Of a stretch of DNA of 64,000 nucleotides, positions 19,649 to 23,705 are shown piece by piece. The DNA lies in assembly GCA_026710655.1 (NCBI GenBank), contig JAPOQN010000001.1, positions 124,001 to 188,000 of the forward strand. The letters are read 5' to 3'. Made by a program: the position numbers and the translations under genes. The stretch comes from Chloroflexota bacterium. Lineage in GTDB: Bacteria > Chloroflexota > Dehalococcoidia > Tepidiformales > Tepidiformaceae. The notes below the pieces were generated by a model. It worked only from the letters and a program-made list of their open reading frames with translations. It was not told the origin of the DNA and did no database searches. The stretch's first letter is position 1; each line of letters starts with the position of its first letter.

Positions 19649-20353
19649 TTAGCCGCTGGCGATGGGGCGCTTCGCGGGCATTCCAGGCCGCCTCGGATAC
19701 CGCGATGGTGTCGGACCAGTCTTGCGGAAGAGCTGCACCGACATCCGCCCGGAAATCTCCTCGCGCATCCCTTCCGTGCCGGTGTGCTCGCAGGCGAGGG
19801 CGGCCATGGCGGCTTCCGCCTCCCCGAGTTCCGCCTCCCCCCGCGAGCCCTTCACTGCTGCGACCGTCCCGCCCGTGGCTGCCAGTGGCGCGGTGTACTC
19901 CAGCAGCACCGGCAGGGGCGCGACCGCCCGCGCGACCACGAGACTGGCGCTATCCCGCAACATCCCCCGACCCGCCTCCTCCGCCCGCTCCCCGTGCGCC
20001 GTCACGTTGTCGAATCCGAGTGTCGCCGCCATCTCTGTCAGCAACTCCGCGCGCTTCTTCCTTGCCTCCACCAGGTGGACCTCCACGTCCGGGGCGACCG
20101 CCGCGATCACCAGCCCCGGGAAGCCGCCCCCGCTCCCCACGTCCACCACCACACCCCGCCTCGGGGCCCCCGCCAGGCGGTACGTCTCAAGCGACTCCGC
20201 GTAGTGGCGTGCCACCACGTCCTCGCCCGTCACGGTGGTCGTCTGCACGGGCGCTGCGGCCAGGATCTCGGCGTGGCGGCGCAGCAGCGGCAGCCAGCGC
20301 CCGGGCTCGTCCAGGTCGGGGAAAAGTGCGGGGAGTATTTCCCACTCAAGCAT
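19649..20353 (-). CDS. rsmG: 16S rRNA (guanine(527)-N(7))-methyltransferase
   Basis: 234 residues. Class I SAM methyltransferase of the GidB family: VVVDVGSGGGFPGLVIA (about 68-84) binds SAM, HLVEARKKRAELL follows, and VVARAVAPLPVLLEY (about 138-152) contains the conserved RAVA block. It methylates G527 in the 530 loop of 16S rRNA; loss gives low-level streptomycin resistance in known bacteria. Start at ATG 20353 follows GGGGGGAA. It is divergent from the GreA fusion gene, with 67 bases between starts. The last 25 residues are a basic Pro/Arg tail. Confidence 0.95.
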   Translation of the reverse strand: MLEWEILPALFPDLDEPGRWLPLLRRHAEILAAAPVQTTTVTGEDVVARHYAESLETYRLAGAPRRGVVVDVGSGGGFPGLVIAAVAPDVEVHLVEARKKRAELLTEMAATLGFDNVTAHGERAEEAGRGMLRDSASLVVARAVAPLPVLLEYTAPLAATGGTVAAVKGSRGEAELGEAEAAMAALACEHTGTEGMREEISGRMSVQLFRKTGPTPSRYPRRPGMPAKRPIASG

Positions 20354-20420: not shown

Positions 20421-21239
20421 ATGAGTGATCAGCCGGGGACAAGTGCCTCCATAACGCTTGGCGAGGCGCTTGAGGAATACCTCGGAACCCTCGCGCCTGA
20501 AGCCCACAACAACGCCTCTCCCTTCGTCCGCCGCTACGTTGAGCATGCCGGCCACGATACCGCCGTCGCCGCCCTGACTGGCGCCCGCGTCGAGTCCTAT
20601 GCCGAGTCGCAGATCCAGATCTCCGACCCCGCCGCGCCCAAGCGGGTTGCCGCCCTCAAGGCCTGGTTTCAGTACCTGAAGAAGCGGAGCTACGTCGAGA
20701 AGAACTACGGCGTGCATATCCGCCTGCGTCGCTCCGCGGGACGCGCCGTGGCCGCTCACGCGGTCAACGAAGCCCCCATTGAGATGACCGCCGAGGGCAT
20801 CACGAACCTCCAGGGCGAACTCGACAAGCTTGAGGGCCATGTGCCCGATCTCGTGAAGGCCATCTCCCTTGCCCGCGAGGACAAGGATTTCCGCGAGAAC
20901 GCACCCCTTGAGGCCGCCCGCGAGGCGCTCGCGTTCAACGAGACCCGTCGCCGCGAGATAAACGCAACGCTCCGCCGTGCCGTCGCCGTTGATGAAGGCG
21001 CTTCCCCCGACGATCGTTCGACCATCGGGTCCACCGTCCAGGTCACCCGGATCGATAACGACCGCGACATGGAGTACAAGCTCGTGAGCGCGCGCGAGGC
21101 GAACGCCGCCGACCGCAAGATCTCGGTTGAGTCGCCGGTCGGCAAGGAACTCCTGGGCCGTCGCGCCGGTGACGAGGTCACCGTCTCGGTGCCCTCGGGA
21201 GTGGTGCAATTCCGCGTAACCGGCGTCAGCAAGTCCTGA
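20421..21239 (+). CDS. GreA/GreB-type transcript cleavage factor fused to an integrase-like core-binding domain
   Basis: 272 residues, about 110 longer than GreA. Residues 122-192 are the GreA coiled coil (MTAEGITNLQGELDKLEG) with tip REDKDFREN; Asp156 and Glu159 match the catalytic GreA Asp41 and Glu44, so RNA-cleavage stimulation should be retained. Residues 200-272 are the FKBP-like domain (PVGKELLGRRAGDEVTV). Residues 11-98 look like the SAM-like N-terminal domain of tyrosine recombinases (LGEALEEYLGTL, then KRVAALKAWFQYLKKRSYVEKNYG). No recombinase catalytic domain is present. The extra domain probably binds nucleic acid or RNA polymerase. Leaderless-type promoter. Confidence 0.85.
   Translation: MSDQPGTSASITLGEALEEYLGTLAPEAHNNASPFVRRYVEHAGHDTAVAALTGARVESYAESQIQISDPAAPKRVAALKAWFQYLKKRSYVEKNYGVHIRLRRSAGRAVAAHAVNEAPIEMTAEGITNLQGELDKLEGHVPDLVKAISLAREDKDFRENAPLEAAREALAFNETRRREINATLRRAVAVDEGASPDDRSTIGSTVQVTRIDNDRDMEYKLVSAREANAADRKISVESPVGKELLGRRAGDEVTVSVPSGVVQFRVTGVSKS

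Positions 21240-21258: not shown

Positions 21259-23705
<2,447 letters not shown>

Follow-up and report, generated by a model that had tools for sequence, protein, structure and literature searches.

A class-wide GreA variant carrying a tyrosine recombinase-type core-binding domain in Dehalococcoidia

The usual view of Gre factors is of minimal proteins with two domains, whose sole route of action is the secondary channel of RNA polymerase. The window analysed here, a stretch of 64,000 nucleotides from a Chloroflexota bacterium of the family Tepidiformaceae, encodes a GreA-like protein of 272 amino acids, compared with about 158 for ordinary GreA. This raises the question of what the added N-terminal part is, whether the protein is equipped to serve as a cleavage factor, and how it relates to the ordinary GreA of these organisms. 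The gene, its parts and its divergent neighbour are arranged as follows, with residues numbered along the fusion protein.

20421–21239, + strand: CB-GreA fusion gene, 272 amino acids plus stop; full-length relatives exist.
20439–20732, + strand: N-terminal domain (N-domain), residues about 7–104, of the tyrosine recombinase core-binding type (CB, SAM-like), with helices at residues 13–23, 26–43, 54–64, 72–88 and 96–99.
20733–20777, + strand: basic, disordered linker, residues 105–119; pLDDT below 50 at residues 106–114.
20778–20990, + strand: GreA coiled-coil domain, residues 120–190 (PF03449); matches 1grj.
20886–20897, + strand: catalytic tip with D156 (20886–20888) and E159 (20895–20897), the counterparts of residues D41 and E44 in E. 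coli GreA.
21006–21230, + strand: GreA C-terminal FKBP-like domain, which docks on RNA polymerase, residues 196–270 (PF01272); contains the invariant S238-P239.
19649–20353, − strand: rsmG (gidB), divergent neighbour (PF02527, E 1.3e-30).

A stop codon immediately precedes the ATG, so that no start further 5' is possible for the fusion ORF. Conservation of the fusion across the class rules out both a chance ORF and an assembly artefact, and the possibility of a decaying gene was rejected on the grounds of class-wide conservation and purifying selection. An earlier note on this DNA had envisaged the contrary case of a second ordinary greA accompanying a pseudogenised fusion: a second greA is indeed present in the genome, but the fusion itself is intact and under purifying selection.

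The C-terminal part is an intact GreA with both catalytic acids, as the earlier note had read it. Both Pfam Gre domains were detected above their cut-offs (GreA_GreB_N at residues 121–187, E 4.5e-14; GreA_GreB at residues 196–270, E 1.5e-22), E. coli GreA (1grj) aligned end to end with residues 120–272 (E 3.6e-23), and the model of this part, with a pLDDT of 90, contains the coiled coil and the C-terminal GreA/GreB domain. D156 and E159 are invariant among 30 aligned fusions, as is S238-P239, and both tip acids were kept in 68 of the 68 fusions surveyed; with both acids present, the tip is not of the Gfh1-like non-cleaving type. The best NCBIfam GreA model scored 124.6 bits against an equivalog cut-off of 145, which marks the fusion as a divergent GreA, and given this score and its extra length we file it as a GreA variant rather than an ordinary member. 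No Phage_integrase domain was found in the fusion by Pfam search, and the remainder of the protein is GreA, so that it is not a recombinase enzyme.

The N-domain was more difficult to place from the window protein alone, as no Pfam family matched it in a single-sequence search and the XerC model (TIGR02224) matched residues 39–106 weakly (E 0.039). The single sequence being too weak, family-level profiles were required, and a profile was built from an alignment of 77 diverse relatives. In the PDB this profile matched the integrase CB domain 3nrw (E 1.8e-5), and within the window's own genome its sole other match was a XerC/XerD recombinase (E 0.006). Phage_int_SAM_4 was matched by 13 of the 77 members and Phage_int_SAM_1 by 11, with any other family matched by two at most. 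Comparison of the N-domain with Xer CB domains from the relatives by hhalign gave a probability of 97.7% (P 1.4e-12), against 0.8% in a control comparison with Gre. Since a Foldseek search with the full-length model gave matches to the two domains intermingled, the N-domain was given an AlphaFold model of its own (pLDDT 90, pTM 0.81); ranks 1–27 of the Foldseek search against the PDB were then all CB domains, including 3nrw (TM 0.75), XerD, lambda Int, Tn1549 Int and an integron integrase. From the profile-profile comparison, the match within the genome and the structure, we conclude that the N-domain is homologous to the CB domain of tyrosine recombinases. The integrase-type SAM-like domain recognized in the earlier note is thereby confirmed, including by the structure prediction that it had proposed as a check.

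The same note had suggested looking for the fusion across Chloroflexota, where it turned out to be widespread. Among 400 sampled Chloroflexota genomes, as read from a table, the full-length fusion was present in 52 of the 54 Dehalococcoidia genomes, and outside the class in 37 genomes belonging to 18 families. The two class genomes without any fusion match (G178 and G210) are each rated 95% complete, and G210 additionally has no PF01272 match. When 84,980 species genomes were scanned with a catalytic-loop peptide as seed, 390 matches were obtained, of which the best 80 were the loci examined; 78 of these came from Chloroflexota, Dehalococcoidia or organisms with related names. No relative of the fusion was found in the viral contigs searched. 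In the open-access literature we found no description of such a fusion, the searches giving unrelated papers, and no paper in which GreA, Chloroflexota and RNA polymerase occurred together.

The window's own genome encodes a second GreA of 155 amino acids, located directly upstream of lysS in a greA-lysS operon on contig C21 (L142:2998–3465, − strand). Its tip reads GTSQNDAEYDNAK, with both acid positions replaced (T and N), and fits the Gfh1-like non-cleaving type; judged by sequence, this protein, called GreA by default, is likely a non-cleaving Gre homologue. The lysS gene flanks the short GreA in 36 of 40 class loci, compared with none of the 80 fusion loci (best 80 of 390), which places the short GreA at a conserved greA-lysS locus that is probably the ancestral position of greA. 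Of the 46 short Gre proteins encoded by class genomes that carry the fusion, 36 have neither acid, seven have one and three have D/D, and the canonical D/E pair occurs in none. For comparison, 22 short GreAs of fusion-free Chloroflexota, chosen among good query matches and possibly leaning to canonical forms, comprised 14 with D/E, seven with D/D or E/E and one with a single acid. In fusion-bearing genomes of other classes, two carboxylates (mostly D/D) were found in 25 of 40 short copies, one in 13 and none in two, with the alignment unsure for a few of them. The erosion of the acids in the short GreA is thus graded, and deepest where the fusion is universal; a rule that the short GreA is acid-less wherever the fusion exists was rejected as too strong, the copies outside the class being mostly D/D. 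The short GreA of the window's family (GTSQND) still has a D one residue away from the position of E44, which makes residual activity conceivable there. One short copy (L311), from a genome with six Gre proteins (G193), keeps the canonical D/E. Some genomes of the phylum and class (G193, G089, G440 and G470) show a local expansion of Gre paralogues, with between four and six Gre-like proteins, a number of them strongly altered at the tip. In four small complete chromosomes (G007, G020, G030 and G039), the fusion is the single Gre.

We conclude that CB-GreA is a lineage-wide variant of GreA and the carrier of the intact catalytic pair. This differs from the locus-targeted GreA considered in the earlier note: throughout the class the Gre with an intact pair is the fusion, and it is the ordinary GreA that has lost the acids. 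As far as the sequences tell, the fusion has apparently taken over the cleavage job from the ordinary GreA in Dehalococcoidia. In a tree of the Gre part, built with the tip columns masked and therefore from few columns, with many forks unresolved, the fusions need 2 changes, compared with 42 in shuffles, and the short copies group with canonical Chloroflexota GreA. With this topology a single origin of the fusion is possible.

The divergent arrangement of rsmG and the fusion recurs in 41 of the 80 fusion loci (best 80 of 390), and in the window the two genes are separated by 67 bases; a shared promoter region is possible. This was the recurrent neighbour; the fusion loci surveyed showed no conserved gene of replication or repair beside the fusion, and the coupling to replication or repair considered in the earlier note finds no support in the data. 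Just downstream of the fusion and convergent with it lies a zinc-ribbon-like micro-ORF of 37 amino acids (21259–21372, − strand), which recurs 3' of the fusion in 11 related loci with 63–97% identity and has a sub-threshold Pfam match only.

Among known proteins, E. coli GreA (1grj) shares with the fusion the coiled coil, the tip acids and the FKBP-like C-terminal domain, but it is about 158 amino acids long and lacks the N-terminal domain. The CB domains of XerC/XerD, lambda Int and 3nrw share both fold and profile homology with residues 7–104; in tyrosine recombinases, however, the CB domain is followed by a catalytic domain, in whose place the fusion has GreA. The NCBIfam models PRK06330 and PRK14720 likewise represent longer proteins with a C-terminal GreA, but they are 700–900 amino acids long, and since the fusion matches their GreA part only, their N-terminal parts differ from that of the fusion. 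In the TPR-GreA/B-C-PIN conflict systems, a Gre-derived domain is fused to other modules, with a proposed role in immunity (PMC8195603); these contain the C-terminal Gre domain only, together with TPR, PIN and effector domains, whereas the fusion has a complete GreA. Gfh1 of Thermus and Rv3788 of M. tuberculosis are Gre-fold proteins that do not cleave and that act as inhibitors or competitors at the secondary channel (PMC4598747). They serve as a model for the short acid-altered paralogue of Dehalococcoidia rather than for the fusion, and as precedents they make a role of this paralogue as a non-cleaving competitor plausible, although they keep acidic tip residues, which the short paralogue has mostly lost.

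We think it rather probable that the fusion is a working cleavage factor with a nucleic-acid-binding CB tether, and the short GreA a Gfh1-like non-cleaving competitor. The GreA part would dock at the secondary channel of RNA polymerase, where D156 and E159 would hydrolyse backtracked RNA. The coiled coil of GreA starts at its base, outside the RNA polymerase channel, and the CB domain would therefore sit at the secondary-channel entrance, hanging outside it on the flexible basic linker at the coiled-coil base. The full-length model has a disordered linker at residues 106–114 and no fixed orientation between the domains (pTM 0.44), the latter being a point against this reading. Across relatives the 24 residues preceding Gre carry an average net charge of about +3.9. 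The CB domain would most likely bind nucleic acid non-specifically, either duplex DNA in the vicinity or the 3' end of the extruded RNA, and this tether would raise the local affinity of the fusion for stalled complexes, while the acid-less short GreA would probably compete for the channel.

What the CB domain contacts is where other readings diverge. Conserved basic positions in the N-domain and its tail (R38, R75, K80, which is basic in 99%, K88, R101, R103 and R104), four of which (75, 80, 88 and 104) have basic counterparts in the Xer CB domains of the hhalign alignment, lead us to favour contact with nucleic acid, either nearby DNA or extruded RNA. Within the N-domain, however, the folded core is close to neutral (mean charge −0.4), the positive charge lying in the tail and linker, so that its hold on nucleic acid might be weak or have given way to protein contacts. 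The CB fold might accordingly now serve as a protein-protein module for docking on RNA polymerase, on some partner or on a second copy of the fusion, having given up contact with nucleic acid. Conservation in the N-domain is also among the highest at several non-basic residues (F39, W42, which is H in the window protein, G44 and Y60), and recombinase CB domains also make subunit contacts, both of which fit such a module; we nevertheless consider it unlikely in view of the conserved basic positions, some of them common to Xer CB domains, and the strongly basic tail and linker.

It is more improbable still that the CB domain directs the fusion to particular DNA sites or structures, such as dif-like sites, junctions or replication-transcription collisions. 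The parent CB domains do bind specific sequences or junctions, but the recurrent neighbour is rsmG rather than a replication or repair gene, and a purely local role fits poorly with the single-Gre genomes, in which the fusion is the sole general Gre. A vestigial passenger of an old fusion, finally, might be suspected from the greater divergence of the N-domain (mean pairwise identity 0.32, compared with 0.44–0.48 for the Gre part). Within the genus, however, the N-domain and the Gre part have dN/dS values of 0.048 and 0.064, respectively, which indicates that the added domain is maintained under strong purifying selection, and it has been retained across the class and in other classes; this reading is already disfavoured, and we regard it as highly improbable.

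A bolder form of the tethered-factor reading is that a recombinase-derived domain created a tethered GreA that replaced the canonical one class-wide, with the ancestral greA turning into an acid-less antagonist and the two factors together forming a backtracking switch. We put this forward tentatively, as a possibility that is on balance doubtful. If the lineage relies on CB-GreA, it would provide a natural test of the recruitment of a cleavage factor through DNA or RNA contacts, and a disarmed GreA beside the fusion, if true, would provide a test of the competition between cleaving and non-cleaving channel factors. For annotation, the short protein called GreA in these genomes is probably not the cleavage factor.
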